Below, piece by piece: positions 25,842 to 58,915 of a stretch of 64,000 nt of DNA. Positions within the stretch are counted from its first letter, which is position 1, and each line of letters begins with the position of its first letter. Source of the DNA: Sinorhizobium meliloti 4H41 (GTDB lineage Bacteria > Pseudomonadota > Alphaproteobacteria > Rhizobiales > Rhizobiaceae); contig NZ_AQWP01000006.1 in the NCBI RefSeq assembly GCF_000375585.1, positions 186,001-250,000 on the forward strand. The letters are read 5' to 3'. The position numbers were made by a program, and so were the translations under genes. The notes beneath the pieces are model-generated. The model worked only from the letters and a program-made list of their open reading frames with translations. It ran no database searches and had not been told where the DNA came from.

Positions 25842-25853
25842 GCCTTTTGAATT

Positions 25854-26020: not shown

Positions 26021-26137
26021 CTCATCCCTGTGCTCGTCTCAGGGATGAGAGCAGCGCCGCGTCTGCGGCGCGCGAAGCGTTCTTTCAGCCCAAGGACTTG
26101 GTCTGGCTGGATTCCTGCGACAAGCACAGGAATGAGG
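26021..26137. repeat. RIME-type palindromic repeat, copy 2
   Basis: About 117 bases, from CTCATCCCTGTGCTCGTCTC to CACAGGAATGAGG. It shares GAGAGCAGCGCCGCGTCTGC and TTCTTTCAGCCCAAGGAC with copy 3 at 38503. It ends about 35 bases before the stop of the RES toxin gene. The 330-base stretch 25842-26171 thus holds only the IS relic, a hairpin and this repeat. Confidence 0.85.
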
Positions 26138-26171
26138 AAATCAAACAAGCGGCGGCGGCTGGCCCGAATCT

Positions 26172-26726: not shown

Positions 26727-26732
26727 CCCGTC

Positions 26733-27104: not shown

Positions 27105-27106
27105 GA

Positions 27107-27155
27107 GAAATCGATCCTGTTTTGATCGGGTCCCTATAAAAATAGGATCGATTTC
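27107..27155. promoter_or_regulatory. Toxin-antitoxin operator: perfect 12-bp inverted repeat
   Basis: GAAATCGATCCT at 27107-27118 and AGGATCGATTTC at 27144-27155 are exact reverse complements separated by 25 bases. One arm lies directly before the antitoxin ATG over its ribosome site; the other lies between the -35 and -10 hexamers. Dimer or tetramer binding by the antitoxin would block both transcription and translation initiation. Confidence 0.8.
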
Positions 27156-27162
27156 CCGTCAA
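27133..27162 (-). promoter_or_regulatory. Candidate promoter of the toxin-antitoxin operon
   Basis: On the minus strand TTGACG (27157-27162) and TATAGG (27133-27138) are 18 bases apart, with an alternative TTATAG at 17. The upstream operator arm fills the spacer. The start codon lies about 28 bases downstream of the -10. Confidence 0.6.
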
Positions 27163-27180
27163 TTCAAGCGCAATCTCGGC

Positions 27181-27966
27181 TCATAGCCGCCAGGAGGGAT
27201 TGCGCCGTTCAAAGAAGGCCGACACGCCCTCCCGTGCTTCGTCCGTTTCCCAGCTATCGGCAAGCTGTTCTATCGTCGCGGCGATGACGGCGTCGGTGAT
27301 GGGAAGACCCAGCGACCGCGCAAGCCGCTTCGCCCGCCCGGCGGCGCCCGGGGCCGCGACCAGATAGGCCGTCACCGCGGCTTCGACGGCTCCGTCCAGC
27401 ATGGTGCCGTCGACGACCGTCGTCACGAAACCGGCGACCTTCGCCTCCTCCGCACCGAAGATCCGCGCCGACATGAACAGAGGCCGCGCCCGCGCCTCGC
27501 CTGTCCGGGCAACGACATAGGGGCTGATCGTCGCCGGGATCAGCCCGAGGCGCGTCTCGGTCAGGCCGAATTGGGCGCCGGAAGCGGCGATCACCGTGTC
27601 GCAGACGCTGATCAGCCCGACGCCGCCGCCGAAGGCGTTCCCATGCACGCGCGCAATCAGCGGCTTCGGCAGATCGTTCAGCGCCTTCAACATCATCGCA
27701 AGCCGCGTCGCCTCGGCGATCCGCGTCGGCCGGTCGGCGGAAAACTGCTGACGCATCCATTCGAGATCGCCGCCGGCACAGAAACTCTTGCCTTCGGCGT
27801 CAAGAATGACTGCCCTGATCGATGTGTCGGTTGCGAGCCGGCCTGCGACGGCCGTCAATTCGCCGATCATGGTGGCGGAAAGCGCATTGTGCTTTGCCGA
27901 ACGGGCAAGCGTCACCCGGGCGACGCCGCGCTGGTCGATGGCACAGCGGATCGTATCGAAGTTCAT
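27181..27966 (-). CDS. Enoyl-CoA hydratase/isomerase, probable methylglutaconyl-CoA hydratase
   Basis: A 261-residue crotonase-fold enzyme. GKSFCAGGDLEWMRQQF (about residues 59-75) and GNAFGGGVGLISVCDTVIAA (about 107-126) form the CoA site and oxyanion hole; the Glu of TETRLGLIPATISPYV matches the acid/base position. In the leucine pathway this step hydrates 3-methylglutaconyl-CoA to HMG-CoA. The assignment rests mostly on neighbours. The frame is open to 28110, but the ATG at 27966 has GAGGAG upstream and overlaps the hmgL stop. It is the last gene of the operon. Confidence 0.85.
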   Translation of the reverse strand: MNFDTIRCAIDQRGVARVTLARSAKHNALSATMIGELTAVAGRLATDTSIRAVILDAEGKSFCAGGDLEWMRQQFSADRPTRIAEATRLAMMLKALNDLPKPLIARVHGNAFGGGVGLISVCDTVIAASGAQFGLTETRLGLIPATISPYVVARTGEARARPLFMSARIFGAEEAKVAGFVTTVVDGTMLDGAVEAAVTAYLVAAPGAAGRAKRLARSLGLPITDAVIAATIEQLADSWETDEAREGVSAFFERRNPSWRL

Positions 27967-28832
27967 GCTGCGCTCCTCAGCGATAGTGCAAAAGCAGCGG
28001 CGCGCTCGAGTTTGTCCGAGTCGAGGCCGCTGGCAAAACCCCGCGCCTCGAGAAAGGCGTTCACCGCAAGCGTATCGACATTGCCGGCCGCTCCCGGCGC
28101 ATAGGGACAACCGCCGAGCCCGCCGGCCGAAGCGTCGAAAACCCGGATACCGCGCTCCAGTGCTACCGCGATATTCTCCAGCGCCCGGCCGGACGTGTCG
28201 TGGAAATGCCCGGCGAGTTTCTTGGCATCGATCTCGCGGAGCGCCGCTGTCAGCATGGCATCGACCGCTTCCGGCGTGCCGCGCCCGATCGTGTCGCCGA
28301 GGCTGATCTCGTAGCAGCCGAGGTCGGCAAGCAGCCGCGCGACGCGGGCGGTCTGCGCCGGTGCGATCGCGCCCTCATAAGGACATTCGACGACACAGCT
28401 CACATAGCCGCGCAGGGGAATGCCTTGGCGCCGGCTTGCTTCGGCGACCGGCCGAAAACGCTCGATGCTTTCGACGATCGAGCAGTTGATGTTCTTCTCG
28501 GAGAAGCTTTCCGACGCCGAGGCAAAGATCGCGACCTCGTCGGCGCCAGCCGCAAGCGCCGCCTCGAAGCCGCGCATATTGGGCGTCAATGCCGCGTAAC
28601 GCGTGCCCGGACGCCGGACGATGTCAGCCATGACAGCCGGCGCATCGGCCAATTGCGGTACCCAGCGCGGACTGACGAAGCTCGTGACTTCAATGCGCTC
28701 GTAACCGCAGTCGGACAGCAGATCGACGAGCCTGACCTTGTCCTCGGTGGCGACGAGCCGCGACTCGTTTTGAAGACCGTCGCGCGGCGCCACCTCGACA
28801 ATCGTGACACGCTCCTTTGCCGGCGACTTCAT
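27963..28832 (-). CDS. hmgL: Hydroxymethylglutaryl-CoA lyase
   Basis: A 289-residue TIM-barrel lyase that splits HMG-CoA into acetoacetate and acetyl-CoA, the last step of leucine breakdown. VEVAPRDGLQNESRLVATED near residue 12 holds the metal-binding Asp and catalytic Arg. SLGDTIGRGTPEAVD and HFHDTSGRALENIAVAL hold metal-binding His and Asn-region residues, and GGLGGCPYAPGAAGN near 250 contains the catalytic Cys loop. The reading frame runs upstream to 29873 inside mccA, but that part is a shadow. The ATG at 28832 overlaps the mccA stop by four bases. Confidence 0.95.
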   Translation of the reverse strand: MKSPAKERVTIVEVAPRDGLQNESRLVATEDKVRLVDLLSDCGYERIEVTSFVSPRWVPQLADAPAVMADIVRRPGTRYAALTPNMRGFEAALAAGADEVAIFASASESFSEKNINCSIVESIERFRPVAEASRRQGIPLRGYVSCVVECPYEGAIAPAQTARVARLLADLGCYEISLGDTIGRGTPEAVDAMLTAALREIDAKKLAGHFHDTSGRALENIAVALERGIRVFDASAGGLGGCPYAPGAAGNVDTLAVNAFLEARGFASGLDSDKLERAAAFALSLRSAA

Positions 28833-30817
28833 TGCGCCGCCTCCTCCGTCAGCGTCACGAGCACCGTGCCCTCGCTGACCTGAGCGCCTTCCGCCACATG
28901 CACATTGGCGATCGTGCCCTCGCGTGAGGCCGAGAGCGTCAGTTCCATCTTCATCGCCTCCATCACGACGAGTGCCTGTCCCTTTGTCACCGCGTCGCCG
29001 GCGCCGACCCGCACCAGCTTCACGAGACCCGGCATCGGCGCGACCAACTCGTCGTCGGCAATTTCGCTGCTCTGCCCGCCGGTCAATCCGTCCGGCAGCT
29101 GGAACACCAGGTTGCGCCCGCCATGGAAGAGCGTCAACGCCTCGCGATCCCGCGAGAAACGGATCAGGCGCTTCTGTCCGGCCACCTCGAGCCGGGCACC
29201 ACCCTCGAAGCGGTCGAGCACCAGGACGGGCAGCGTGCTCGCGCCGGCACGCACGGCGAACTGGTCGCGGCCGCGCGAAGCCAAGGTCACGGTTACGCGG
29301 TCGTCCGCATGCTCGATCACCACCATGCGGTGCGCGTCGCCCCAGATTTGCCAGGAGCCGAGCGACGACCATGGATCGCTCGACTTGTTCGGATCGAGCG
29401 CGCCGGTCGATATGATCGCCGCCAGCGCCAGCGCCTCGTCGCCGGGTGCGACCGGCGCGGTCAGGCGCTCGATCTCGCGGTCGATCAGCCCCGTATCCGG
29501 ATGGCCGGAGCGGAAGTCGTGCTCTTCCGTCAGGCGGATGAGAAAATCGCGGTTGGTAACGGTGCCGCCGATGCGGCATTCCTTGAGAGCCTCCTGCAAC
29601 CCACCGAGCGCCGCCGAACGGTTCTGGCCATGCACGATCACCTTCGCAATCAGCGGATCGTAATAGGGCGTGATCGTATCCCCCTGCCGGACGCCGGAAT
29701 CGATCCGCGCAGTATCCTCGGGAAAGCTCAATTGCGTCAGCCGGCCGGTCGCCGGCAGGAAGCCCCGGGCCGGATCCTCCGCATAGAGGCGCGCCTCGAA
29801 GGCCCAGCCGTTCATGGAAATATCGGCCTGTTTCTTCGGCAGCGGCTCGCCGCTGGCGACCCGCAACTGCCATTCCACGAGATCGATGCCGGTGATCGCT
29901 TCCGTGACCGGATGCTCCACCTGCAGCCGCGTGTTCATCTCCATGAAATAGAAGTGATCCGGCCAGAGACCGTTGGTCACGTCGGCGATGAATTCCACCG
30001 TGCCGGCGCCGACATAGCCGATCGCCTGGGCGGCTCTGACCGCCGCATCGCCCATCGCACGGCGGACCTCGGCCGTCATGCCGGGCGCCGGCGCCTCCTC
30101 TATCACTTTCTGATGTCGCCGTTGCAGCGAGCAGTCGCGCTCGAAGAGGTGAACGATATTGCCGTGCCGGTCGCCGAAGACCTGCATCTCGATGTGACGC
30201 GGCTTCGTCAGATAGCGCTCGATAAGCACCGAACCGTCGCCGAAGGCGGATTCGGCCTCCCGTCGTGCGGCCTCCAGCGCCGGGCCGAAATCCTCCTGCC
30301 GCTCGACCCGGCGCATGCCTCTGCCGCCGCCGCCCGCCCGCGCCTTGATCAGCACCGGATATCCGATCTCCCGTGCCCTCTCGGCAAGAAAGGATGCATC
30401 CTGCTCATCGCCGTGGTAGCCGGGCACGACCGGTACTCCGGATCGTTCCATGAGCGCCTTGGCCGCGTCCTTGAGACCCATGGCGCGGATCGCGGCCGGC
30501 GGCGGCCCGACGAATATCATGCCTGCTTCTTCGACAGCCTCGGCGAAATCGGCGTTCTCCGAGAGAAAACCATAGCCCGGATGAATGGCTTGTGCGCCGA
30601 CGCTTCTTGCCGCTTGAACGATGGGCGCAATCGCCAGATAGCTTTCGGCGGCGGGCGCTCCCCCGATCCGGATCGCCTCGTCGGCGAGCGCCACATGCAG
30701 CGCGTCTCCGTCTGCGTCGGAATAGACGGCGACGGTGCGAATGCCGAGCCGTCGCGCGGTGCGGATGATGCGGCAGGCAATCTCACCGCGATTGGCAATC
30801 AGGAGCTTCGAAAACAT
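28829..30817 (-). CDS. mccA: 3-methylcrotonyl-CoA carboxylase biotin-containing alpha subunit
   Basis: A 662-residue biotin carboxylase. The carboxylase domain (about 1-450) begins FSKLLIANRGEIACRIIRTA and contains ATP-grasp signatures KARAGGGGRGMRRV and FMEMNTRLQVEHPVTEAITG. A central linker domain follows. The biotinyl domain near the C-terminus has the lysine motif VMEAMKMELTLSA. With the mccB product it carboxylates 3-methylcrotonyl-CoA. Context with ivd and hmgL separates it from propionyl-CoA carboxylases. Confidence 0.93.
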   Translation of the reverse strand: MFSKLLIANRGEIACRIIRTARRLGIRTVAVYSDADGDALHVALADEAIRIGGAPAAESYLAIAPIVQAARSVGAQAIHPGYGFLSENADFAEAVEEAGMIFVGPPPAAIRAMGLKDAAKALMERSGVPVVPGYHGDEQDASFLAERAREIGYPVLIKARAGGGGRGMRRVERQEDFGPALEAARREAESAFGDGSVLIERYLTKPRHIEMQVFGDRHGNIVHLFERDCSLQRRHQKVIEEAPAPGMTAEVRRAMGDAAVRAAQAIGYVGAGTVEFIADVTNGLWPDHFYFMEMNTRLQVEHPVTEAITGIDLVEWQLRVASGEPLPKKQADISMNGWAFEARLYAEDPARGFLPATGRLTQLSFPEDTARIDSGVRQGDTITPYYDPLIAKVIVHGQNRSAALGGLQEALKECRIGGTVTNRDFLIRLTEEHDFRSGHPDTGLIDREIERLTAPVAPGDEALALAAIISTGALDPNKSSDPWSSLGSWQIWGDAHRMVVIEHADDRVTVTLASRGRDQFAVRAGASTLPVLVLDRFEGGARLEVAGQKRLIRFSRDREALTLFHGGRNLVFQLPDGLTGGQSSEIADDELVAPMPGLVKLVRVGAGDAVTKGQALVVMEAMKMELTLSASREGTIANVHVAEGAQVSEGTVLVTLTEEAAQ

Positions 30818-47732: not shown

Positions 47733-49052
47733 TCAGAGCTTGCCGGCGTCTTCGAGGATGCCGGTCGCCTTTTCGGCGGCGGCGTCGAGCGCTTCCTTCG
47801 ACGTCTTGTCGCCGAGGATCGCTGCCTGCAGCTCCGGATAGACTGCGTTGGAGATCTCGATCCACTCAGCCGTCTGCGGCACCGGGAAAGCATGCTTTGC
47901 CGCTTCCTGGAACGCCTGCAGGACCTCGGTCTTGTAGGCGTCGCCTTCCGCGGCCTTGATATTGTAGTCCCAGACGGCGCTTCGCGTCGGCAGCGGGCCG
48001 GCGGCGGATTCGAGCTTCTGGCTGTCCTCATTCGTCAGCCACCAGACGAGCGAGGCGGCTGCTTCCTTGTCGGCGCAGGATTCGGTCACCGAGAAGCCGT
48101 GATGCCCGGACCAGCCGGTGCGCTTGCCGGAGGAGCCGGCCGGCTGAACCTTGACGCCGACATTCCCGGCGACCTTCGACGATTTCGGATCGTTGAAGAA
48201 GGATGCCCAGCCGGGCCAGTCGAGATTGACCGCGATCGAGCCCGAGGCGAAGCCCTGTCCGAGATCGTCCCAGAGATAGTTGGTGGTGCCCGGCGGTACC
48301 GCCTTGTCCTTGTAGAGCTTGACGAACCATTCGAGCGCGCGCACGCCCGCTTCCGAATTGAAGGCGGGGCGGCCGTCCTTGTCGAGATATTCCCCACCCT
48401 CGGCGACCAGCATTTCGTAGAAGCGGCCGTTGATCGCTTCCTCCTTGCCGGCAAACTGGGTGCCGTAGAAATTCGGCGGAGCGGCGAAGAATTCTGCCTG
48501 GTCGCTCACCTGAGCCCAGGTGTCCGGCGGCGCGAGGTCATAGCCGTATTTGGCCTTGAATTCGGTCTTCTTCGCCTCGTCCTGGTATAGGCTCTTTTGG
48601 AAATAGAGCGCGGAGACGTCGAACTGCGCCCGCGGCAGCATGACGAGCTTGCCGTCGAGCGTCGAGGCGTCGATTACGGCCGGTACGAATTTGGCCACTT
48701 CCTCGGAAGGGATGAGGCCGAAAAGGTCCGCATAGATGTCCGGATACTGCGGAGCGAAGGAGGAGTGGTTCGAACCGACGCACCAGGTGAGGCCGCCGGT
48801 GGCGATATCGGATTTGATCTCCTTGTCCAGTTCGAAGTGGTTCTTCTTCGACAGGATATTGACCTTGGCGCCGGTCGCCTTCTCCCATTCGCCGATGCGC
48901 TCATAGAGTTTCTCGTACTGCTGTCCACCGATCAGCTTGGCGTCGATGGTCACGCCTTCGAACTTGCCGGGCAGGTCCGCGGCATTTGCCGCCCCCATTG
49001 CGCAAGCAAGCATGATCACTCCGGCCGATACGCCGGAAAGCAGCCTGTTCAT
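47733..49052 (-). CDS. Sugar ABC transporter periplasmic binding protein
   Basis: A 439-residue family 1 solute-binding protein. GGAGGAA precedes the ATG at 49052. The signal peptide MNRLLSGVSAGVIMLACAMG is cleaved after ANA near residue 24. NLDWPGWASFFNDP and GWSGHHGFSVTESCADKEAA resemble the usual binding-protein C-lobe. It is first gene of a long operon (importer, enolase-superfamily protein, mutarotase, oxidoreductases, hydrolase, fuconate dehydratase), so the ligand is probably L-fucose or a close relative. Confidence 0.9.
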   Translation of the reverse strand: MNRLLSGVSAGVIMLACAMGAANAADLPGKFEGVTIDAKLIGGQQYEKLYERIGEWEKATGAKVNILSKKNHFELDKEIKSDIATGGLTWCVGSNHSSFAPQYPDIYADLFGLIPSEEVAKFVPAVIDASTLDGKLVMLPRAQFDVSALYFQKSLYQDEAKKTEFKAKYGYDLAPPDTWAQVSDQAEFFAAPPNFYGTQFAGKEEAINGRFYEMLVAEGGEYLDKDGRPAFNSEAGVRALEWFVKLYKDKAVPPGTTNYLWDDLGQGFASGSIAVNLDWPGWASFFNDPKSSKVAGNVGVKVQPAGSSGKRTGWSGHHGFSVTESCADKEAAASLVWWLTNEDSQKLESAAGPLPTRSAVWDYNIKAAEGDAYKTEVLQAFQEAAKHAFPVPQTAEWIEISNAVYPELQAAILGDKTSKEALDAAAEKATGILEDAGKL

Positions 49053-49113
49053 TGTACTTCCTCCGCTGAACACGCCCTTCTCCGAGAGCATGAGTCCTCA
49101 TCCGTGAGAAACT

Positions 49114-49136
49114 AATTTATATACAAACGATAAATT
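49114..49136. promoter_or_regulatory. Candidate IclR operator (7-bp inverted repeat)
   Basis: AATTTAT, nine bases, ATAAATT in an AT-rich patch between the divergent binding-protein and IclR genes. Position and symmetry suit a dimeric repressor controlling both. AT-rich composition makes chance symmetry more likely, so confidence is moderate. Confidence 0.45.
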
Positions 49137-49219
49137 TATGGATGGTCAAGGGCCATTCCCTTCCGTCTTCCGCTTTTCATGCGTATATGGAGGGGAATAT
49201 TCATCTGGGAGAGACGCGG

Positions 49220-50002
49220 ATGGACAATGAAGAGTCAGACAAGTATCGCGCGCCGGCACTCGACAAGGGCCTGGACATACTGGAGCTGCTTGCCAGCGTC
49301 GACGGCGGCCTCACGCAGGCTGAGATTTCGAAGAGGCTGAACCGCAGTCCGAACGAGTTCTACCGCATGCTCGACCGTCTGGTGCGCCGCGGCTACGTGA
49401 CCCGTATCGACGGCGATCTCTATTCGCTGACCCTGAAGCTCTTCGGATTGGCGCAGTTGCATGCGCCCGTGCGCCGGCTCGCTTCCTTCGCCACGCCGCT
49501 GATGCGCGAGCTCGCCCAGCGGTCCAAGCAGGCCAACCAACTCGCCGTCTTCGACCGCGGCTCCGCCGTCGTGATCGCGCAGCAGGAGGCGCCGGACTAC
49601 TGGGGCATTTCGATCCGGGTGGGCTCGCATATCAGCCTGTTCGACACCGGATCGGGCCACGTGTTGCTTGCATTCCGTTCGCCGGAGGAACGGGAAATGA
49701 TGATCTCCGAACATGTGCGCAGCAGGGACGAGATCAACCTCACCCCGGAATTCTACGCCCGTCTCGACCAGATCCGCGAGCGCGGCTACGAGATGATGGC
49801 AAGTGCCCAGACCGCCGGTGTCTACAACCTCTCCGCCCCGATCCTTGGGCCCGACGGACGCAGCATCGCAGCGCTCACCTGCCCCTATATCTCCCTGGTC
49901 AACAATCCTTCGGCCCCTGATATCACCGAGACCATATCGCTCCTGCTCAAGACCGCATCGCAGCTCTCGGCGCTCGCCGGAGCCGATGTCGCGCAGGGTT
50001 GA
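49220..50002 (+). CDS. IclR family transcriptional regulator of the fucose-type operon
   Basis: A 260-residue regulator. The winged helix lies at about residues 10-75 (APALDKGLDILELLASVDGG, QAEISKRLNRSPNEFYRMLD), the effector domain at about 85-250 (ISIRVGSHISLFDTGSGHVL, AGVYNLSAPILGPDGRSIAA). The start at 49220 has GGGAGAG six bases upstream; an upstream in-frame ATG at 49142 lacks one. It is divergent from the importer operon and followed by the lactonase gene 50 bases later, so it probably senses an L-fucose pathway intermediate. Confidence 0.88.
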   Translation: MDNEESDKYRAPALDKGLDILELLASVDGGLTQAEISKRLNRSPNEFYRMLDRLVRRGYVTRIDGDLYSLTLKLFGLAQLHAPVRRLASFATPLMRELAQRSKQANQLAVFDRGSAVVIAQQEAPDYWGISIRVGSHISLFDTGSGHVLLAFRSPEEREMMISEHVRSRDEINLTPEFYARLDQIRERGYEMMASAQTAGVYNLSAPILGPDGRSIAALTCPYISLVNNPSAPDITETISLLLKTASQLSALAGADVAQG

Positions 50003-50052
50003 TCCGCGCCGGAAAAACAGACTTCCTATGTGAACGAAGAGGAGGAGCAGCC

Positions 50053-50889
50053 TTGATCATCGACACGCATCTGCATCTGATCGACAAATCCGCGCTCAAC
50101 TATCCGTGGCTCGCCGGGGTTCCCGCGCTCGATCGGGATTTTCTCTATTCGAGCTATGCGGCGGAGGCAAAGCGCGTGGGCATTGCCGCCTCGCTGCATA
50201 TGGAAGTGGACGTCGACCCGGCTGAGATCGAACTCGAAACGCGCGAGGTCGCGCGTCTTGCGGGTGAGCCCGGAAGCCTCCTCAAAGGCGCAATTGCCGC
50301 CTGCCGCCCGGAAGAGGAAGGCTTCGCCGCCTATCTCGCGCGGCAGGAGGAAAACGCCTTCGTCAAGGGCTTCAGGCGGGTGTTGCACGTCGTTGCCGAC
50401 GATCTCTCCGAGCAATCTCTCTTTCGCCAAAACATCAAGCGGCTCTCCGGCACCCGCTTCACCTTCGATCTCTGCGTCCTGCCGCATCAGATGCCGAAAG
50501 CCATGGCACTCGCCGACCTCGCGCCCGACGTACAGTTCATTCTCGACCATTGCGGCGTTCCCGACATAAAGGGTCACGCGGAGCATCCCTGGCGCGATCA
50601 TATGACCGAGATCGCCCGCCGCCCGAATGTCGTCGCCAAGATCTCCGGAGTGGTCGCCTATGCGGAGGAAGGCTGGACGCTCGCCTCCATCCGTCCTTAT
50701 GTCGAGCACACGATCTCGGTCTTCGGCTGGGACCGCGTCGTCTGGGGCAGCGACTGGCCGGTCTGCACCCTCGGCGGCAACCTCTCCACCTGGGTCGCGG
50801 CCACCCAGGCTCTCATCGAAGGCTGCAGTCCCGAGGAACGGAGGAAGCTGCTCTCCGGCAATGCGCGGCGGATCTGGAACCTGCCCTGA
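50053..50889 (+). CDS. Amidohydrolase 2 family protein, probable L-fuconolactonase
   Basis: A 278-residue metal-dependent hydrolase. IDTHLHLIDKSALNYPWLAG at the start carries the HxH motif. FILDHCGVPDIKGHAEHPWR supplies another metal-site His, and VVWGSDWPVCTLGG the catalytic Asp. L-fucono-1,5-lactonases belong to this group. I use the TTG start at 50053, which has GGAGGAG five bases upstream; the longer frame from 49999 has no site. It likely hydrolyses the lactone formed by the fucose dehydrogenase step. It follows the IclR gene on the same strand. Confidence 0.85.
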   Translation: MIIDTHLHLIDKSALNYPWLAGVPALDRDFLYSSYAAEAKRVGIAASLHMEVDVDPAEIELETREVARLAGEPGSLLKGAIAACRPEEEGFAAYLARQEENAFVKGFRRVLHVVADDLSEQSLFRQNIKRLSGTRFTFDLCVLPHQMPKAMALADLAPDVQFILDHCGVPDIKGHAEHPWRDHMTEIARRPNVVAKISGVVAYAEEGWTLASIRPYVEHTISVFGWDRVVWGSDWPVCTLGGNLSTWVAATQALIEGCSPEERRKLLSGNARRIWNLP

Positions 50890-50956: not shown

Positions 50957-51835
50957 TCATGGTGCGCCGCGTTGCCGTTCCAGCGTCTCGAAATGGTCGG
51001 CGATCTCCTTGCCGGTTGCGATCCAAACGTCGCCTTTTGCCTGAACGTGACGCAGGAAGTCGCGAAGGAGGTGCCAGCGCATCGGACGGCCGGAGACTTG
51101 CGGGTGCAAAACGAGCGTCGTGACGCCGCCCCAGGCATGGGTGGCCTCGAATTCGTCGATCCAGAGCGAAAGGACGGCTTCGCGGCCGAAGAGCGGTCGC
51201 GCGCTCGAGCGGCTGGACATCCCGAAATTCCAGTCGTCGAATGCGAAATTGACCGGAATCTCCACCGGGCCCGGCACGCCGTCCGCCGACGCGTGCCGGT
51301 AGGGCAGGATGTCGTCGCGAAACGAGCTGGAATAGCGGATGCCCGTTTTGGCAAGATAGGCGATGAGCTCGGGAAAATTCTCTCCCGAGGGCGCGCGGTA
51401 GCCGACCGGACGGATGCCGAATGCCCGCTGCAGCGCCTCGAAGCCGCGGTCGATCTCCTCGAACGTCTCGTCCAGCCGATCGCGATCCGGCATCTTGTGA
51501 AGATAGCCGTGGTGACCGATCTCGTGTCCGGCCGCGACAATCTTCTCGCAGGCCGCGGGATGGGCAAGCGCCGTCCATCCGGGCGTGAAGAACGTCGCCT
51601 TCATCGCCAGCTCGTCCATCAGTTCGAGGATCCTGGCAATGCCGACGCGCGCATCGTAGCCGCCATGGGAGGTGGTCACCATCCGATCGACATTCGAAGG
51701 ATTGTTGCCGATCCATGCGGTTTCGGCATCCACGTCGAAGCCGATGAAGACGGCGCTCTTCGCGCCGTTCGGCCAGGTCAGCGCCGGCGTTTGCGGCGCC
51801 GGATTGAGCGGACGGGGCGTCAGGTCGTAGGTCAT
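50957..51835 (-). CDS. NodB-like polysaccharide deacetylase family hydrolase
   Basis: A 292-residue carbohydrate esterase family 4 type protein. FIGFDVDAETAW near residue 31 supplies the metal-site Asp. EIGHHGYLHKMPDRDRLDET supplies the two His residues, and VGYRAPSGENFPELIAYLAK the Arg/Pro loop. No signal peptide is present, so it acts in the cytoplasm, as do PuuE-type amidohydrolases of this fold. That suggests an amide or cyclic-imide substrate rather than a polymer. It ends an operon with ArgH-like, transport and MmgE/PrpD genes, 10 bases after the MmgE/PrpD stop. Confidence 0.85.
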   Translation of the reverse strand: MTYDLTPRPLNPAPQTPALTWPNGAKSAVFIGFDVDAETAWIGNNPSNVDRMVTTSHGGYDARVGIARILELMDELAMKATFFTPGWTALAHPAACEKIVAAGHEIGHHGYLHKMPDRDRLDETFEEIDRGFEALQRAFGIRPVGYRAPSGENFPELIAYLAKTGIRYSSSFRDDILPYRHASADGVPGPVEIPVNFAFDDWNFGMSSRSSARPLFGREAVLSLWIDEFEATHAWGGVTTLVLHPQVSGRPMRWHLLRDFLRHVQAKGDVWIATGKEIADHFETLERQRGAP

Positions 51836-51845
51836 CACGAAATCC

Positions 51846-53249
51846 TCAGCAAAAGACGGGACGCTTGTCGCCGTCGCCAGCAAGCAGGGGCTCCAGAGCG
51901 CGGCAATCCTCGACGTGTTCGAGCTCGGCGAGCATCCGCCAGAGCCCGTCCGCCTGCTCCGTTTCGATGCTCATCGCGGCGAGCTCTCCGAACTTGGCGC
52001 GGATGGCGGCGGGGCGCATCGGCCTTTCGGCGGAGCCGGTCGCGCGGGGCACCATTCGTGCCAGACGAGCGCCGTCCTTGAAGAGAAGCGTGACGACCGG
52101 CTCGTCGAGCGGCTGCATCCCATCGTCTACCGTGAGCAGCATGCGGTCCATGACGGCCCGCAGGCGGGAATCGGCACGTCGGTCGGCGGCATAGGCCTGG
52201 AGCCCGGCCGTCAGGAACACGCAGCGTGCCGCAAGCGCATAGGGCAGGCTCATCTGCGTGGGCGCCATGGCGCCGCTCTCACGGGCGCCGCACATGCCCA
52301 TCAGCATGGCGCTCAACCGCAACTCGATCCGCTCGATCTCAACTGCATCACGTCCCGTTTCCGAAAGCAGGTCGTCCAGCGCATCGATCGCCGAATGGGC
52401 GCCCCGGCAGGAAGCGTAAGGTTTGAGGACCGCACGCCTCACCTTCCAGTCTTCGTCCAGTCTTTCGCATAGCTTCTGCGGCTCGCAGACATCCTTGTTG
52501 AACGACAGGAAAAAGCCGCCCCAGACGTCGTCGAAGACCCTGGAGGGGCCGGCAAGGCCCTCCCCTGCCAACCGCGCCGCGAGCAGCCCGCCCTCGGCCG
52601 CGCGGCCGGCATGGACCTTCTTCGCCTGCGATCCGTCATGGATGAAGGCCCAGAGGCCGGAGGAGAAGCTGGTGGCGAGCGTGATCGCATCGCGCGTGGC
52701 AAGATCGTCGAAACCGGAAAGCCTGGCCACGGCCGCCGCAGCCGCAAGCGTGCCGCAGGTGCCCGTGCAATGCCAGCCGAGCCCGTTGTGGCTGTCGTAT
52801 CCGCCCGCCGCTTCGAGGACGCGCCGGCCGGTCTCGTAGCCCGCGACCACGCTGGCGATGAGTTCCCTGCCCGTCACCGGGCGCTTCGCTTCGGCAATCG
52901 CGGCCAGAACGGCGGGAATGACGACGGCGCCCGAATGGTCGCACCCGCCGGAATCGTCGAGTTCGAAAGCGTGTGCCGCGATCCCGTTTATGAGCGCGGC
53001 CTCACGCGCTGCCGTGCGATCGCCGGTGCCCCAGATCAGCGCGCTACCGGGCACACCGGCGGCCCTGCGGGCTATGCCGGCTTCAGCCGATCGCGCGCCA
53101 GCCAGTGCCGCGCCGATCGTGTCCGCGATGTGGACTTTGGTCTTTTCGACGACATCGGCTGGAAGCGCTTCGAACTTAAGGGCTGCAAGAAAGGATGCCA
53201 GCCTGTCGACCGGCGTGTCGGCGGCAACGCGGGGCATGGAACTGCTCAT
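51846..53249 (-). CDS. MmgE/PrpD family protein
   Basis: A 467-residue MmgE/PrpD protein. HIADTIGAALAGARSAEAGI near residue 41, NGIAAHAFELDDSGGCDHSG near 88, GYETGRRVLEAAG, and GLGWHCTGTCGTLAAAAAVA near 155 are the family core. FKPYASCRGAHS-type text appears as LKPYASCRGAHSAIDALDDL. The family includes 2-methylcitrate dehydratase, cis-aconitate decarboxylase and iminodisuccinate epimerase, all acting on tricarboxylate-like or dicarboxyethyl compounds. It sits in an operon with an ArgH-like lyase and amino acid importer, which favours an epimerase role. A 73-base gap with a hairpin precedes it. Confidence 0.88.
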   Translation of the reverse strand: MSSSMPRVAADTPVDRLASFLAALKFEALPADVVEKTKVHIADTIGAALAGARSAEAGIARRAAGVPGSALIWGTGDRTAAREAALINGIAAHAFELDDSGGCDHSGAVVIPAVLAAIAEAKRPVTGRELIASVVAGYETGRRVLEAAGGYDSHNGLGWHCTGTCGTLAAAAAVARLSGFDDLATRDAITLATSFSSGLWAFIHDGSQAKKVHAGRAAEGGLLAARLAGEGLAGPSRVFDDVWGGFFLSFNKDVCEPQKLCERLDEDWKVRRAVLKPYASCRGAHSAIDALDDLLSETGRDAVEIERIELRLSAMLMGMCGARESGAMAPTQMSLPYALAARCVFLTAGLQAYAADRRADSRLRAVMDRMLLTVDDGMQPLDEPVVTLLFKDGARLARMVPRATGSAERPMRPAAIRAKFGELAAMSIETEQADGLWRMLAELEHVEDCRALEPLLAGDGDKRPVFC

Positions 53250-53282
53250 GGTTTGTCGAGAACCGGTCGGCGACGGCGCATT

Positions 53283-53313
53283 TTGCGGCCCCGCCTGTTC
53301 GGCGGGGCCGCAA
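53283..53313. terminator. Perfect 13-bp hairpin after the amino-acid-binding-protein gene
   Basis: TTGCGGCCCCGCC, loop TGTTC, GGCGGGGCCGCAA, starting nine bases past the binding-protein stop on the minus strand. AAAA on the plus strand side is not a T run for the minus transcript beyond the stem. It is the strongest of the three such hairpins in the window. Confidence 0.82.
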
Positions 53314-53322
53314 CGCGGCGGA

Positions 53323-54153
53323 TTACTTCACCGCTTCGCCATTGACGTAAATGCCATCGAGCAAGGTGCCCTCGAGGCCGTATTTTGCGAAAATCGCCTT
53401 GTACTCGCCTGATTCCATCAGGGCCTTCAGCGCTGCAGCATAGGCGTCGCGCAGTTCCGTGTCCTTCTTGGCGAAACCGATGCCCTGATAGACCACGGTG
53501 AAGGGCTCGCCCACGACGGCGTAGGTGTCCTTCTCGAGATCCATCAGATAGGGCAGCGTTTCGGAACCCTGGACGGCGGCGTCGAGCCGGCCTTGCTTGA
53601 GCTGGGCGCGGGCATCGGCGGAGCCTTCCGTCCCGACGACCTTGATGGCTGGCAGCCCCTTGGCTTCGCAATTGGCAGCACTCCATTTCGCCGTCTCGTC
53701 CGGGAAGGAGGTGCGGCGGCTCATGCCGACGGTCTTGCCGCAGAAATCGGTGAGCGTCTTGAACTCGTCCTTGCGGGCAAAGGACGTGTAGAACTGCGCG
53801 CCGGATTTCATGTAATCGATGAAATCGAGCGTATCGCGGCGCTTCGGAAGATCGCTCATGCCGCTATGGATAAGGTCGACGCGGCCGGTCTGAAGCGACG
53901 AGATCATCTGCTCGAAGCCGATATTCGACCACTCGACCGTGGTGCCGAGCTCTTTGGCGAGCGCAACGCCGAGATCGATGTCGACACCCTTAAGTTCGTT
54001 GGTCGCCGGGTCGACATATTCCATCGGCGGATAGTTCGGCTGGTTGGCGACGACGACCTTGCCGGCCGACTTCACCCGCTCGGGCAGGCCGGCGGCACTG
54101 GCGGAGGTTGCGGCGAGGCATGCGACCGTGAGCGCTGCGATATGCTTGTTCAT
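53323..54153 (-). CDS. Amino acid ABC transporter periplasmic binding protein
   Basis: A 276-residue family 3 solute-binding protein. The ATG at 54153 has GGGGA six bases upstream; an ATG four codons earlier is possible. The signal peptide is MNKHIAALTVACLAATSASA. KVVVANQPNYPPMEYVDPAT and KGVDIDLGVALAKELGTTVE open the mature protein. The transported ligand should be the substrate of the ArgH-like lyase in the same operon. It is separated from the ATPase gene by 62 bases and from MmgE/PrpD by the hairpin. Confidence 0.9.
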   Translation of the reverse strand: MNKHIAALTVACLAATSASAAGLPERVKSAGKVVVANQPNYPPMEYVDPATNELKGVDIDLGVALAKELGTTVEWSNIGFEQMISSLQTGRVDLIHSGMSDLPKRRDTLDFIDYMKSGAQFYTSFARKDEFKTLTDFCGKTVGMSRRTSFPDETAKWSAANCEAKGLPAIKVVGTEGSADARAQLKQGRLDAAVQGSETLPYLMDLEKDTYAVVGEPFTVVYQGIGFAKKDTELRDAYAAALKALMESGEYKAIFAKYGLEGTLLDGIYVNGEAVK

Positions 54154-54215
54154 GTGGTTCCCCATCTTGTCCTGGTTCGAGCCGGCGGCTTCGTCTGCCG
54201 CCGTTTTTCTGTTCC

Positions 54216-54986
54216 TCAGCTGTGAACGGCTTTGATGAACTCCGCCGTTCGGGCGCTTTTCGGGGTGCTGAGAACCTCCGATGCCAAGCCTGTTTCGACC
54301 ACCTTGCCGGTTTCCATGAAGGTGACGGTATTCGCCACGTTGCGGGCGAAGCCGAGCTCATGGGTGACGACGATCATCGTCATGCCGGAAGCGGCAAGGT
54401 CCCGCATCACATCGAGCACTTCCGACACCAGTTCAGGGTCGAGCGCCGACGTGGGTTCGTCGAAGAGAATGAGGTCCGGCCTCATGCCCATGGCGCGGGC
54501 GATCGCGACGCGCTGCTGCTGGCCCCCGGAAAGCTCGGAAGGGTAATGGTTCGCCTTGTCCGCCAGTCCCACCCGCTCCAGCAATGCCGAGGCCCTGTCG
54601 CGCGCTTCCTTCACCGGCTCGCCGAGCACCTGCACCGGGCCCTCTGTGATGTTTTCCAGGGCTGTCTTGTGCGGGAACAGGTTGAAGCGCTGGAAGACCA
54701 TGCCGATCCGCCGCCGCTGGCGCGAAATCTCCGCATCGCTGATCTCGTGGAGATTGTTGCCGTCGCGGCGGTAGCCGATCAGTTCGTCCTCGACCCAGAT
54801 TGCTCCGCCGTCCATCCGCTCCAAAAGATTGATGCAGCGCAGAAGCGTGCTCTTGCCCGAGCCCGAGGGACCGATGATGCAGCTCACCTCCCCGCGGGCG
54901 ACGTCCAGGCTGACCTTGTCGAGAGCGCGGAACGTGCCGTAGTTCTTCGTGACGTCGATAGCCTTGACGAGAATATCCTGGTTCAT
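54216..54986 (-). CDS. Amino acid ABC transporter ATP-binding protein
   Basis: A 256-residue GlnQ-type ATPase starting MNQDILVKAIDVTKNYGTFR. Walker A IIGPSGSGKSTLLRCINLLE, signature [20 protein letters not shown], Walker [21 protein letters not shown] and switch VTHELGFARNVA are intact. The upstream frame to 56057 runs through permease and argH in another frame and is a shadow. It pairs with the single fused-type permease at 54995. Confidence 0.93.
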   Translation of the reverse strand: MNQDILVKAIDVTKNYGTFRALDKVSLDVARGEVSCIIGPSGSGKSTLLRCINLLERMDGGAIWVEDELIGYRRDGNNLHEISDAEISRQRRRIGMVFQRFNLFPHKTALENITEGPVQVLGEPVKEARDRASALLERVGLADKANHYPSELSGGQQQRVAIARAMGMRPDLILFDEPTSALDPELVSEVLDVMRDLAASGMTMIVVTHELGFARNVANTVTFMETGKVVETGLASEVLSTPKSARTAEFIKAVHS

Positions 54987-54994
54987 GACCGACC

Positions 54995-55867
54995 TCACAT
55001 GGACGAGCGGATCGATTTCGAACCGCGGCCGAAATAGCGCTCGATATAGTGCTGCCCTATCGAGAGCACGGAGACGACGAGCAGGTACCAGAAGCTCGCG
55101 ACCAGCAGCAGTTCGAGGACGCGGGTATTGGCGAAATAGATGATCTGCGCGTTGTGGAGGATCTCGGAATACTGGATGACGCTGGCGAGCGACGTCAGCT
55201 TCACCATGCCGATCACCTCGTTGCCGACCGGCGGCACCATGACGCGCATCGCCTGCGGCAGGACGATACGGCGCAGCATCATCATCTGCGTCATGCCGAT
55301 CGTGCGCGCAGCCTCGTACTGGCCGCTGTCGACGGACAGGAGCCCGCTTCGCACGACCTCCGAAGTATAGGCGCCCTGGGATATGCCGAGCCCGAGTACG
55401 GCGGCGACGAAGGGCGTCATGACGTCGACCGTCCTGAACTCGAACAGTCCCGGAATGCCGAGCGTCGGGAAGATGAGCGCCAGGTTGAACCACAGCATCA
55501 ACTGCAGCAGCGCCGGGGCGCCGCGAAAGACCCAGATATAGCCGATGGCGATCGACGACAGCACCGGATTGCCTGATATCCGCATGATGGCGATGACGAC
55601 GCCGAGGACGATGCCGAGCCCCATGGCGGCAACGGTCATCAGCAGAGTGTTGTAGAGGCCGGCGAGGATTGCGGGTGCGAAGAGAAAATCGCGGACATAG
55701 CTCCATTCGATCTGCCCGACGCTGAAGGCCCGCACGAGACCTGCAAACAGCAGGAGCACGATGCCCGCCGCAACCATCCGCCCGATATGGCGCTTCGGCA
55801 CCAGTTTCAGATGGGCGATCTCGTATTTGGAATCCGCAGGCGGAGTTGCGAGGCTTGCCACATTCAT
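54995..55867 (-). CDS. Amino acid ABC transporter permease
   Basis: A 290-residue permease with an N-terminal cytoplasmic extension of about 30 residues. FAPAILAGLYNTLLMTVAAM, YIWVFRGAPALLQLMLWFNL and the EAA region EAARTIGMTQMMMLRRIVLP are typical of the polar amino acid family. Only one permease gene is in the operon, so it probably forms a homodimer. The start overlaps the lyase stop by four bases (ATGA). Confidence 0.92.
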   Translation of the reverse strand: MNVASLATPPADSKYEIAHLKLVPKRHIGRMVAAGIVLLLFAGLVRAFSVGQIEWSYVRDFLFAPAILAGLYNTLLMTVAAMGLGIVLGVVIAIMRISGNPVLSSIAIGYIWVFRGAPALLQLMLWFNLALIFPTLGIPGLFEFRTVDVMTPFVAAVLGLGISQGAYTSEVVRSGLLSVDSGQYEAARTIGMTQMMMLRRIVLPQAMRVMVPPVGNEVIGMVKLTSLASVIQYSEILHNAQIIYFANTRVLELLLVASFWYLLVVSVLSIGQHYIERYFGRGSKSIRSSM

Positions 55868-57330
55868 CGGCGTCGCGCCTCCTCTGCGCCGTTCTTCGCG
55901 CCCGCAATGGCCCCGCCGCCGGTCGGGCCGCCGGCAAAGGCGCGGCAGCCGGCAAGCGCCGTTTCGAAGCGGGCGATCTGCTCGCGAACCCGCTCCGGCG
56001 CTGTTGCACCGTAGCCGTTTCTGCTCGCAAGCGCCTTTTCGAGCGCCAGTGCCGCAAGCATCTCCGGCTGAAGCCGCGGATCGATCCCCGGCAGATCCTC
56101 AGCCGTCAGGCCGGCAAGGTCGTGGCCGCGCTCTTCGCAATAGCGCACCACTGCGCCGGTGATCTCGTGCGCTTCGGCGAAAGGCACGTCCCGGCCCACC
56201 AGCCAGTCGGCCACTTCGGTCGCGAGCGTGAAGCCCTTCGGCGCCTCCTCGCGCAGCTTCTCCACGTCGAATTCCAGCGTTCCCACCATGCCGGCAAAGG
56301 CGGGCAGGACCAGTTCGAGAACGTCGATCGTCTCGAACAGGCTGCGCTTGTCCTCGGCGAGATCGCGATTATAGGCGAGCGGCATCGCCTTCATGGTGGC
56401 GAGGAAGCCGGCGATGTTGCCGATCAGCGTGCCCGACATGCCGCGCGTCAGCTCGGCGACGTCGGGATTCTTCTTCTGCGGCATGATCGAGGAGCCGGTG
56501 GAATAGGAATCATGCAGCCGTACCCAGCTGAACTGCTTGGAGCTCCAGAGGCAGATTTCCTCCGCAAGCCGCGAGAGATCCACCGCCACCAGCGAGCAGA
56601 TGAAGAGGAATTCGGCGACGTGATCGCGCGCGGCGACGGCATCGATGGAGTTCTCGCAAGCGGCCGAATAGCCGAGATCGATGGCGGAGAGATCGGGGCG
56701 GCGCGCAATGCCGGAGCCGGCCAGTGCGGCCGCACCCAGAGGCGAGCGATCGAAGCGGCGGTCCCAATCGGCAAAACGCTGCAGGTCGCGCAGCAGCGAC
56801 TGCGCGTGCGCCATGAGGTGGTGGCCGAGCACGACCGGCTGGGCCGGCTGAAGATGGGTAAAGCCGGGCATCACGGTCTCCGTATGCCGGGATGCCTGCT
56901 CCATCAGTGCTTCTTCGATGGCGATCACGCCCCGGGAAAGCTCCCGCGCCATGCGCCGCAGATAGAGGCGCGTATTGTTGGCCGTCTGGTCGTTGCGCGA
57001 CCGCCCGGCGCGAAGCTTGCCGCCAAGCGTGCCGAGGCGCGCCATCAACAGACGCTCGAGAAAGGTATGCAGATCCTCATCAGCCGCAATAGGTTCTTCG
57101 CGGCCGGCACCGACATCGGCTTCGATGCCTTCCAGGGCTGCGCGTATCGCGGAGAATTCACTCTCGTCCAGGACGCCGGCGCGCTTCAACTCGGAAGCAT
57201 GGGCGCGTGAACCTGCAATATCTTCCCTGTACAGTCGAAAGTAAGATCGGGGCGCGCGGGACAGATTGGCAAGCGCTTCGGACGGTCCGGACTTGAATCG
57301 TCCACCCCAAAGCTGAGTGGGCTCGGTCAT
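55864..57330 (-). CDS. Argininosuccinate lyase-like C-N lyase (ArgH paralogue, altered substrate residues)
   Basis: A 488-residue fumarase/aspartase-superfamily protein. LWGGRF (7-12), AGRSRNDQ (108-115), FTHLQPAQP and the signature GSSIMPQKKNPD (279-290) are conserved, so elimination chemistry releasing fumarate is likely. Positions conserved from E. coli to human argininosuccinate lyase differ: the FN(A/D)S element that should lie near residues 23-26 reads LSRA, and YNKDxQEDK reads YNRDLAEDK (Ala325 for Gln). It is also longer than the usual 455-470 residues. It heads an operon with an amino acid importer and MmgE/PrpD gene rather than arginine genes. Annotation as argH is therefore doubtful; a lyase for N-(dicarboxyethyl) amino compounds is proposed. 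Confidence 0.85.
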   Translation of the reverse strand: MTEPTQLWGGRFKSGPSEALANLSRAPRSYFRLYREDIAGSRAHASELKRAGVLDESEFSAIRAALEGIEADVGAGREEPIAADEDLHTFLERLLMARLGTLGGKLRAGRSRNDQTANNTRLYLRRMARELSRGVIAIEEALMEQASRHTETVMPGFTHLQPAQPVVLGHHLMAHAQSLLRDLQRFADWDRRFDRSPLGAAALAGSGIARRPDLSAIDLGYSAACENSIDAVAARDHVAEFLFICSLVAVDLSRLAEEICLWSSKQFSWVRLHDSYSTGSSIMPQKKNPDVAELTRGMSGTLIGNIAGFLATMKAMPLAYNRDLAEDKRSLFETIDVLELVLPAFAGMVGTLEFDVEKLREEAPKGFTLATEVADWLVGRDVPFAEAHEITGAVVRYCEERGHDLAGLTAEDLPGIDPRLQPEMLAALALEKALASRNGYGATAPERVREQIARFETALAGCRAFAGGPTGGGAIAGAKNGAEEARRR

Positions 57331-57510
57331 CTTCGTTCCCTTTATTTGTCATTCTTTCGAAGAAGCTCCCACGGGTGGCATATCCCGGGCAAGCGAAGTT
57401 ATTTCACCAAGCTATGACAAAAACGACTAGCCTTGCTCCGGGCACTTATTTAGGGTCTGCGCAGGGGGCGGAGCGGACGCGCATCGGCTGAATTTGGCGG
57501 AGGAATTTTC

Positions 57511-58413
57511 ATGGCTTCGGGACGGCGGCGCTTGCCTTCGACGACCGCGCTTCAGGTGCTGCTTGCGGTGGCCGAAAGGGGATCGACGAGCGCTGCCGCC
57601 GAAAGCACGTCGCTGTCGCAGAGCGCCGTCAGCAAGCAATTGCTGTCGCTCGAAGAGCTGATCGGCAGCCCCGTCTTCGTCCGGACACCGCGCGGAATGA
57701 TCCCGACGGAAGTGGGCACGATCTATATCGAACAGGCGCGCACCGCATTGAAGGCGATGGAGGACGCCGCCCTTCGGGTCGCCCGCCTGAAACCGGGCCC
57801 GCGCGTGCTGAGATTGCAGGTGCCGCCCATTTTCGGGGACCGGTGGCTGCTGCCGCGCTTCCTTCGCTTTACCGAGCAGCACCCGGAGATCGAGGTGCAG
57901 TTCACGACGTTCGTTTCTCCGACACAGTCCCAGACGCCCGATGCGATATTCCGTTTCCTGAGCGAACCGCTGCCGGACGAGGAGACCAGCTATCTCTTCG
58001 GGCGCGAGGTTCTCGTCGTCAGCGCCCCTTCCTACTGGGAGAAGAACGGCGCTCCGGAGACGATCGAAGATCTCGCCGACGGCATCATGCTGGAGCACCC
58101 GCAGACGCCGCTGCACTGGAATTATTTCGCCAAAGGCCATGGCAAGGACGACCTCGCGGTCCGGCACACCACGCGCTTCGGCTATTATACGATGGTGATC
58201 CGGGCAGCACTTGCCGGACAGGGAATGGCCTTGATCCCGCGCGGCCTTATCCTCGATGACCTTGCGGCGGGAAAGCTCGTCAATCCGAACGGCTTCGGAT
58301 ATCGAAGCGACCATGGCTACTGGTTCGCGAAACCGCGGGACATCGCGCCGAGTGCTTCCATGCGGACGTTCGAGGCATGGCTGATGGCGGAAGCCGAAGG
58401 CATGGGCGACTGA
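57511..58413 (+). CDS. LysR family transcriptional regulator
   Basis: A 300-residue LysR protein. The helix-turn-helix (about 12-70) reads TALQVLLAVAERGSTSAAAE then STSLSQSAVSKQLLSLEELI. The effector domain runs from about residue 92 (RVLRLQVPPIFGDRWLLPRF) to 295. GGAGGAA precedes the ATG. It is divergent from the ArgH-like operon across 180 bases, the classical arrangement for a LysR activator. The gap includes a TTCTT/AAGAA palindrome at 57352-57364, but no convincing T-N11-A box was fixed. Confidence 0.9.
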   Translation: MASGRRRLPSTTALQVLLAVAERGSTSAAAESTSLSQSAVSKQLLSLEELIGSPVFVRTPRGMIPTEVGTIYIEQARTALKAMEDAALRVARLKPGPRVLRLQVPPIFGDRWLLPRFLRFTEQHPEIEVQFTTFVSPTQSQTPDAIFRFLSEPLPDEETSYLFGREVLVVSAPSYWEKNGAPETIEDLADGIMLEHPQTPLHWNYFAKGHGKDDLAVRHTTRFGYYTMVIRAALAGQGMALIPRGLILDDLAAGKLVNPNGFGYRSDHGYWFAKPRDIAPSASMRTFEAWLMAEAEGMGD

Positions 58414-58444: not shown

Positions 58445-58915
58445 TCAGTCCGCCAGCCGCGCGAGCGCCTCTCCGTCGAGCCGGAAGAAGACCTTGTCCG
58501 GTTTGCGTGCGCCGCCCAGGTCTTCATAGAAGGAAAAGAGCCGAGTGTTTTCCGCCTCCGCGGTCCAATCGATGCGCGTGAGCCCGCGCTCCTTCGCCAG
58601 GCTGGCCAGCTTCTGCATCAAGGCCCGGCCGAGGCCGCGGCCCCGCTGTGATCCGCTGACGTAGAGTTCCTTCAGAAAGATGCCCGGCTTCAGGCCCGGC
58701 CCGGGGTAAATCGCGGAGAAGGCGGCGAGACCGAGCACCGAACCATGCTCCTCGGCGACGAGGATCTCCGCGCCCGGCGGCATGGCTTCAAGCCCCGCGA
58801 TTATCTCGGCGCGCGGCGGACAGGCCACGCGGTAGTGCGCCTGCATTTCCTCCATGAGGGCCGCAATTGCGGGGAAGGCTGCGTCATGGGCCTGCAACAG
58901 GCGGATCGGCGTCAC
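58445..58915 (-). CDS. GNAT family N-acetyltransferase
   Basis: A 156-residue acetyltransferase. The acetyl-CoA loop is LYVSGSQRGRGLGRALMQKL (about 92-111; Q/RxxGxG/A present as QRGRGLG), followed by NTRLFSFYEDLGG. I use the GTG start at 58915, with GAGGG seven bases upstream; the frame runs far upstream inside the lysozyme gene and is a shadow there. It begins 10 bases after the GH25 stop, so the two are co-transcribed. The substrate is unknown. Confidence 0.82.
   Translation of the reverse strand: MTPIRLLQAHDAAFPAIAALMEEMQAHYRVACPPRAEIIAGLEAMPPGAEILVAEEHGSVLGLAAFSAIYPGPGLKPGIFLKELYVSGSQRGRGLGRALMQKLASLAKERGLTRIDWTAEAENTRLFSFYEDLGGARKPDKVFFRLDGEALARLAD

Follow-up and report, generated by a model that had tools for sequence, protein, structure and literature searches.

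An import-coupled operon built on an argininosuccinate lyase paralogue in Sinorhizobium meliloti 4H41 and its putative succino-guanidino substrate

Which compound is taken up and cleaved by an operon that joins an argininosuccinate lyase (ArgH)-like protein to an amino-acid transporter and an MmgE/PrpD-family protein? The question is raised by positions 50957-57510 of the window, the whole 64,000-nucleotide stretch of Sinorhizobium meliloti 4H41 that was analyzed (contig NZ_AQWP01000006.1, positions 186,001 to 250,000), where genes for an ArgH-superfamily lyase, an ATP-binding cassette (ABC) permease and ATPase, a solute-binding protein (SBP), an MmgE/PrpD protein, and a NodB-family hydrolase lie beside a divergent LysR gene. 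An initial annotation made from the sequence alone had proposed catabolism of N-(dicarboxyethyl) amines such as iminodisuccinate (IDS). All seven genes were intact and in the order it gave, and profile or Pfam matches agreed with the families it assigned. An import-coupled catabolic operon built on an ArgH paralogue is well supported by these sequences, and catabolic release of fumarate from an imported succino-compound is likely. Taken as a whole, a nitrogen-scavenging import-and-cleave operon is the best explanation, with about an even chance of being correct. Each reaction and the substrate are deduced here from gene content, conservation, lyase phylogeny, residue changes, a double recruitment of the lyase, and neighboring genes.

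The lyase scored 510 bits against TIGR00838 (cut-off 279.5), is labeled argH in annotated matched public records, and carries the name argH2 in S. meliloti, all of which would suit a plain second isozyme of argininosuccinate lyase that adjoins an unrelated system for arginine uptake. However, a separate argH, scoring 615 bits, is present in the window genome (the lyase of a second operon copy scored 516 bits), and the lyase and transporter genes were joined in 47/47 operon loci, a set chosen by lyase match, in which lyase presence and partly its clade are given by construction, and which forms 24 clusters at 85% lyase identity rather than 47 independent loci. Asp30 and Gln325 (window numbering) occurred in 0/47 operon lyases and in 103/103 compared ArgH-type proteins, while Glu47, Phe90, and Asn118 were present in 47/47 and 0/103, respectively. 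The comparison set was intended to hold 104 loci, one of which (L049) runs off its contig, and its proteins were chosen by similarity or kinship and are called ArgH-type here rather than biosynthetic ArgH. The reading of the lyase as an ArgH paralogue with changed, otherwise invariant residues held; it is not the arginine-synthesis ArgH, and an ordinary isozyme is very unlikely.

The main tree (69 of the 150 lyase sequences; later trees had 38 and 37 rows) gave a mixed answer to the proposed separation from genuine ArgH. The sampled operon lyases (28/47) formed one clade with 100/100 support that joined actinobacterial ArgH (100/100), yet stood apart from the alphaproteobacterial ArgH group holding the genome's own ArgH. 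The window lyase resembles ArgH (TIGR00838; M. tuberculosis 6iem) in sequence, catalytic loops, and probable chemistry, and differs in lacking the invariant Asp and Gln, in lying inside an uptake operon, and in having a separate argH in the same genome. As the initial annotation stated, the catalytic loop GSSIMPQKKNPD is present, and catalytic Ser281 was kept in all 150 lyases (47 operon and 103 compared). The Ser loop GSSxMPQKxNP, THLQ, and RSRND were kept in all 13 operon rows covered (of 47), with NAD in one row and NCD in another in place of NPD. Of the two residue losses reported earlier, that of the Gln of YNKDxQEDK stood, the Gln of QEDK being replaced by Ala in the window lyase. The absence of FN(A/D)S is real yet not diagnostic, because actinobacterial ArgH proteins also lack it (LSxS instead), and it was rejected as a sign of changed substrate in the window clade. 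The losses that the alignment marks as diagnostic are the Asp near the FN(A/D)S site and the Gln. Both residues presumably contact the arginine half of the substrate in ArgH, so the substrate of the operon lyases should differ from argininosuccinate in its amine half, with the succinyl half and the reaction conserved. Literature searches gave nothing specific on argininosuccinate as a nitrogen source, dicarboxyethyl arginine, or ArgH active-site residues, and the accessible parts of three papers (PMC4701392, PMC12363623, PMC7601404) stated no role for ArgH arginine-side residues or for the SBP Asp that binds the alpha-amino group.

A second line of evidence came from another Rhizobiaceae genome (G511), in which homologous permease, ATPase, SBP, hydrolase pair, PrpD, and LysR genes accompany a lyase of another ArgH lineage. 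This lyase was 51% identical to the window genome's other ArgH, 54% to Thioglobus ArgH, and 39% to the window lyase, and the genome has a further, higher-scoring argH (624 vs. 563 bits for the cluster lyase). It lacks the FNxS element, the aromatic residue before Asp30, and the acidic residue after EDK. Forcing it into the operon clade, as a single origin would require, was rejected (approximately unbiased test, p-AU 7e-11), and ArgH was therefore recruited twice. Among 247 Rhizobiaceae genomes, 7/7 places of the operon PrpD subfamily (E up to 1e-90) were clustered with an ArgH-type lyase, of the window type in six and of the G511 type in one. Given the double recruitment and these seven places, the pathway appears to need ArgH-like chemistry. 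This bears on a further alternative, in which the lyase carries out a related elimination with a product other than fumarate, or the substrate is a dicarboxyethyl amine lacking a guanidino group, for example an opine-like amino acid from fungi or plants. The clade-specific Glu47, Phe90, and Asn118 would allow a different partner, but the retained Ser loop, THLQ, and RSRND, the double recruitment, and the guanidino-degrading neighbors described below argue otherwise, and this alternative is unlikely.

The operon corresponds to the argH2 locus on pSymB of S. meliloti, where the lyase is 98-99% identical. A second copy lies on a different contig of the window genome, with copy-to-copy identities of 69% (lyase), 77% (permease), 76% (ATPase), 75% (SBP), 56% (PrpD), 75% (hydrolase), and 57% (LysR). 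The 47 loci, the window included, span Alpha-, Beta-, and Gammaproteobacteria and are part of many more, only some of the plasmid matches having been sampled. Plasmid copies were found in S. medicae, Rhizobium, Neorhizobium, Agrobacterium, Shinella, Chelatococcus, Microvirga, Gemmobacter, and Burkholderia, and lyase identity was at least 60% in 89/304 matched plasmid records. The spread was patchy (lyase E up to 1e-130): 6/32 genomes of the genus, 9/247 Rhizobiaceae, 4/385 Alphaproteobacteria, and 9/398 Pseudomonadota, each count taking in the window genome itself. The permease and ATPase were present in 47 loci, the SBP and LysR in 46, PrpD in 34, and the hydrolase in 34, with both of the latter in 33 and neither in 12; the proposed coupling of the lyase to an uptake system and an MmgE/PrpD protein was borne out. 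The uptake system and lyase are the operon core, and PrpD and hydrolase travel together as a second module. Three loci (L140, L147, L152) start or stop at contig edges, and at least two of the 12 without PrpD and hydrolase are cut or interrupted (L152, L169). Of these, L152 was probably miscounted, because another contig of its genome (L209) has both hydrolase genes and PrpD.

Some single loci deserve mention. On the Shinella sp. WSC3-e plasmid (L169) the operon breaks off behind the ATPase gene, and other genes follow, a predicted aac(3)-IIe gene among them, while Shinella strain WSD5-1 (L128) has the complete operon. The operon MmgE/PrpD gene of S. meliloti 1021 (L126; NC_003078 pSymB 733000-747000) matched in two pieces, from a frameshift or sequencing error, while that of S. 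meliloti 2011 matched over its full length in a single piece; most of the 60 records among the matches listed were likewise unbroken. Phenotype screens in S. meliloti 1021 could overlook a role of this gene.

The initial link to IDS or ethylenediaminedisuccinate (EDDS) catabolism was not supported. An MmgE/PrpD protein and an ArgH-superfamily lyase do occur together, as that proposal expects; IDS epimerase belongs to MmgE/PrpD, with His99 and Tyr145 as its proposed bases according to the available parts of its description (PMC7347537), and EDDS lyase (6g3d/6rx8) matches the ArgH family. However, the window MmgE/PrpD protein is 29% identical to IDS epimerase (2hp0), and among its relatives His99 was kept in 34/34 whereas Tyr145 was kept in 0/34, being Asn instead (1 of 35 rows was gapped there). 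Bacillus subtilis "IRG1" scored slightly higher (102 bits) than IDS epimerase (96 bits), and the operon PrpD subfamily was set apart by score (at least 381 vs. at most 157 bits). No IDS epimerase relative above 40% identity was found among the 247 Rhizobiaceae genomes. The window lyase scored 498 bits to mycobacterial ArgH vs. 199 bits to EDDS lyase, which is far away on a long branch and has no counterpart of the YNxDxxEDK segment retained in the window lyase. No amine-oxidizing partner occurs among the operon genes, and IDS or EDDS as the substrate is highly improbable.

The best match of the hydrolase in the Protein Data Bank was 3rxz (191 bits). PuuE allantoinase (3cl6) shares its NodB-like family and overall length and scored only 62 bits, and the hydrolase was below the PuuE profile TIGR03212 (77.1 bits, cut-off 424.6). 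Burkholderia, Pseudomonas, and their relatives carry two hydrolase genes in tandem. Among hydrolases of the single and first-of-pair types, 34/34 retained the Asp and HxxxH metal motif, while the second of the pair lacked the first His in 10/10, a loss which suggests an inactive partner subunit. Pairs with such a degenerate second copy were L039, L040, L134, L139, L140, L141, L151, L156, L157, and L158. In the SBP, the position of the alpha-amino-binding Asp is Gly in 51/51 operon proteins. This Asp is assumed to bind the free alpha-amino group in canonical amino-acid SBPs, so the operon SBP would suit an N-substituted ligand.

Neighboring genes bear on the amine half. In 8/47 loci (two Agrobacterium, one each of Neorhizobium, Rhizobium, Gemmobacter, and Microvirga, and two other alphaproteobacterial genomes), the operon adjoins a gene for a ureohydrolase that shares at least 64% identity with the Agrobacterium protein, and a ninth locus had a more distant one (47%). 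The nearest solved relatives of the Agrobacterium protein were 3-guanidinopropionase and guanidinobutyrase (3nip, 3nio; 285 and 259 bits), then agmatinases (202 bits), and three of the eight (L127, L130, L136) were above the TIGR01230 agmatinase cut-off (185-193 vs. 174.3 bits). In the Microvirga locus an arginase (254 bits, cut-off 227.6) and ornithine cyclodeaminase lie upstream, plus an Lrp-like gene. Ornithine cyclodeaminase, arginase, and Lrp genes also adjoin an ABC-hydrolase-hydrolase-PrpD set in Paracoccus seriniphilus, where the 19 kb examined held no lyase, as though the housekeeping ArgH were enough. In Roseomonas and Kozakia, loci without a lyase have homologous ABC and hydrolase genes beside N-carbamoyl-amino-acid hydrolase, amidohydrolase, racemase, or arginine-deiminase-family genes. 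These plasmid loci (L131, L132, L133), with ABC and NodB-family genes and neither lyase nor PrpD in the fetched stretch, and with hydantoin-type or arginine-deiminase-family neighbors, may represent a sister pathway acting on other N-substituted amino acids. The Microvirga, Paracoccus, and Roseomonas/Kozakia neighbors are in keeping with an arginine-type compound that also occurs in cyclic or acylated form. The linked ureohydrolase, arginase, and ornithine cyclodeaminase favor a guanidino substrate, which the initial annotation had not considered. A guanidino or arginine-type amine half is tentatively preferred, at somewhat less than an even chance. A succino-guanidino compound can be inferred with moderate firmness as the substrate class, and the genes point to argininosuccinate, its cyclic or epimerized forms, or a derivative as candidates.

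By gene class rather than by orthology, the yxe/scm pathway for S-(2-succino)cysteine (2SC) is the closest working analogue. Both would combine an acetyltransferase (YxeL, which we take to be a GNAT protein), an ABC transporter, a deacetylase-type hydrolase, an MmgE/PrpD-class protein (presumably YxeQ), and a class I lyase expected to release fumarate. The window operon differs in its ArgH-derived lyase, its NodB/CE4 (PF01522) hydrolase in place of YxeP (assumed to be an M20 peptidase), its optional GNAT, its nitrogen-linked expression, and its guanidino-degrading neighbors. In the sections available of the yxe/scm study, the acetyltransferase, ABC transporter, deacetylase, and lyase 2SL act together, 2SL prefers the N-acetylated substrate, YxeQ is given no known function, and the locus is defined by at least three of YxeK, YxeL, YxeMNO, YxeP, and YxeQ (PMC9706529). 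The window operon could then be a third form of this pathway, with import, GNAT N-acetylation, epimerization, cleavage of N-acetyl-2SC or a different acetylated succino-amino acid with release of fumarate, and deacetylation by the NodB-family enzyme. Its component classes match YxeL, YxeMNO, YxeP, and YxeQ, with 2SL replacing YxeK (PMC9706529), and acetylation of the substrate would also explain the loss of the ArgH residues. Against this stand the limited occurrence of GNAT (20/47 loci), the other family of the hydrolase, neighbors that a 2SC pathway would not lead one to expect, and the expression data.

These data come from the available portions of a study of an S. meliloti 1021 tolC mutant (PMC2912261). 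There argH2 was down 20.7-fold on arrays and 4.5-fold by PCR, the ABC genes of its locus 10.3 to 17.5-fold, and speB2 18.7-fold, together with nitrogen-assimilation genes, and its authors saw lower NtrC as the probable cause of the reduced expression of genes for nitrogen-compound transport. The sulfur gene cysN was up 37.5-fold, unlike what a sulfur-scavenging operon would lead one to expect of argH2. The fall of argH2 with nitrogen genes as cysN rose suits nitrogen scavenging and speaks against a sulfur role, and the 2SC alternative is distinctly unlikely. The other urea-cycle genes rose, except arcA2, while argH2 fell, which also speaks against an ordinary isozyme. SMb21094 is taken as the gene studied here because it was the only pSymB match to the lyase. 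Searches of the PMC literature found no paper describing the gene cluster, and the tolC paper, in the portions available, merely lists its genes (PMC2912261).

The preferred nitrogen-scavenging reading would run as follows. The ABC transporter would import an N-(1,2-dicarboxyethyl) compound, that is, an amine that bears a succinyl group like the one in argininosuccinate. Elimination of fumarate by the ArgH-type lyase would free the amine half. This half is most likely an arginine-type compound or another guanidino compound, and ureohydrolases or arginase may then break it down. The MmgE/PrpD protein and NodB-family hydrolase would form a second module that repairs unproductive substrate forms, the former by inverting the succinyl stereocenter and the latter by opening a cyclic amide or stripping an acyl group put on by the GNAT. 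Argininosuccinate spontaneously forms cyclic anhydrides. A salvage route for spoiled or environmental argininosuccinate-type compounds could thus be envisaged, with uptake, anhydride opening by the NodB-family amidohydrolase, re-epimerization by MmgE/PrpD, and fumarate release by the twice-recruited ArgH paralogue feeding arginine or guanidino acids to ureohydrolases, although this complete chain is doubtful. It shares one step with the initial annotation, cleavage of a dicarboxyethyl compound with release of fumarate, and this step is the reading that the sequences favor most. If the salvage route were correct, the MmgE/PrpD proteins of succino-adduct loci, YxeQ included, would share a succinyl-epimerase role. 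If the import-and-cleave reading holds, the name argH2 in S. meliloti, like the label "argininosuccinate lyase" given to dozens of proteins encoded on rhizobial and Burkholderia replicons, would be a misnomer for a catabolic enzyme. The operon would also recycle fumarate adducts of nitrogen compounds by a new route, supply C-N lyases of natural origin for biocatalysis, and be a case of ArgH-type chemistry recruited twice into one pathway, and it would give MmgE/PrpD a testable role in succino-adduct operons.

Several observations weigh against this reading. Plain argininosuccinate may bind poorly if Asp30 and Gln325 contact the arginine half as assumed, and the G511 cluster lyase keeps both residues, an argument against a change of substrate common to the two lineages. 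Twelve loci have neither PrpD nor hydrolase, so these two are not essential, and the GNAT homologue is missing from 27/47. The close ureohydrolase is absent from the fetched stretch in 39/47 loci, some cut by contig ends; the window genome's orthologue (76% identical), a possible counterpart of speB2, is on another contig, away from the operon. Arginase neighbors were found in two loci only, and a minimal operon (L137, Pseudorhizobium flavum plasmid 4; lyase, ABC, SBP, and LysR genes) adjoins a histidine-utilization (hut) cluster.

The genes of the window operon are collected in Table 1. The lyase and permease genes overlap by 4 bp and the remaining operon spacings are 8-73 bp. The gene set first described was real; it overlooked the GNAT gene, the second operon copy, and the separate argH. 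The GNAT gene is counted as an operon member, making the operon larger than first described, and in the second copy its counterpart (62% identical) sits at the opposite end.

Table 1. Genes of the candidate uptake-and-cleavage operon and its flank, in window coordinates.
Feature	Coordinates	Strand	Remarks
ArgH-superfamily C-N lyase, operon clade	55864..57330	-	TIGR00838 510 bits; clade 100/100; Asp30 and Gln325 lost
Amino-acid ABC permease, PAAT family	54995..55867	-	Present in 47/47 lyase-selected loci
ABC ATPase	54216..54986	-	Present in 47/47 lyase-selected loci
Periplasmic SBP, family 3	53323..54153	-	Gly at alpha-amino-binding Asp position, 51/51 operon SBPs
MmgE/PrpD-family protein, candidate epimerase	51846..53249	-	Pfam PF03972 and PF19305; 29% to IDS epimerase
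NodB/CE4 polysaccharide-deacetylase-family hydrolase, candidate ring-opening enzyme or deacetylase	50957..51835	-	PF01522; Asp and HxxxH metal motif
LysR regulator, divergent from operon	57511..58413	+	GcvA-like, below cut-off; LysR gene in 46/47 loci
GNAT acetyltransferase, conserved accessory	58445..58915	-	Convergent with lysR; GTG start at 58915; homologue in 20/47 loci

Inspection by eye of the interval between lyase and lysR for a sigma-54 site gave no convincing candidate. Elsewhere in the window genome, a further ArgH-related gene (L004/L125; G000:C26:18553-22725 and 11000-29000) scored 228 bits, below the TIGR00838 cut-off. Its lyase region lies inside an open frame of approximately 920-936 amino acids, for which an ATP-grasp fusion like PRK02186 is a guess, and it lies near D-Ala-D-Ala-ligase-like and transposase-like genes (named by eye) in a possible small biosynthetic cluster. 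Next to the operon, window positions 47733-50889 hold a sugar-type SBP, an IclR-type regulator, and an amidohydrolase/lactonase-like gene (also named by eye), apparently a separate sugar catabolic operon.

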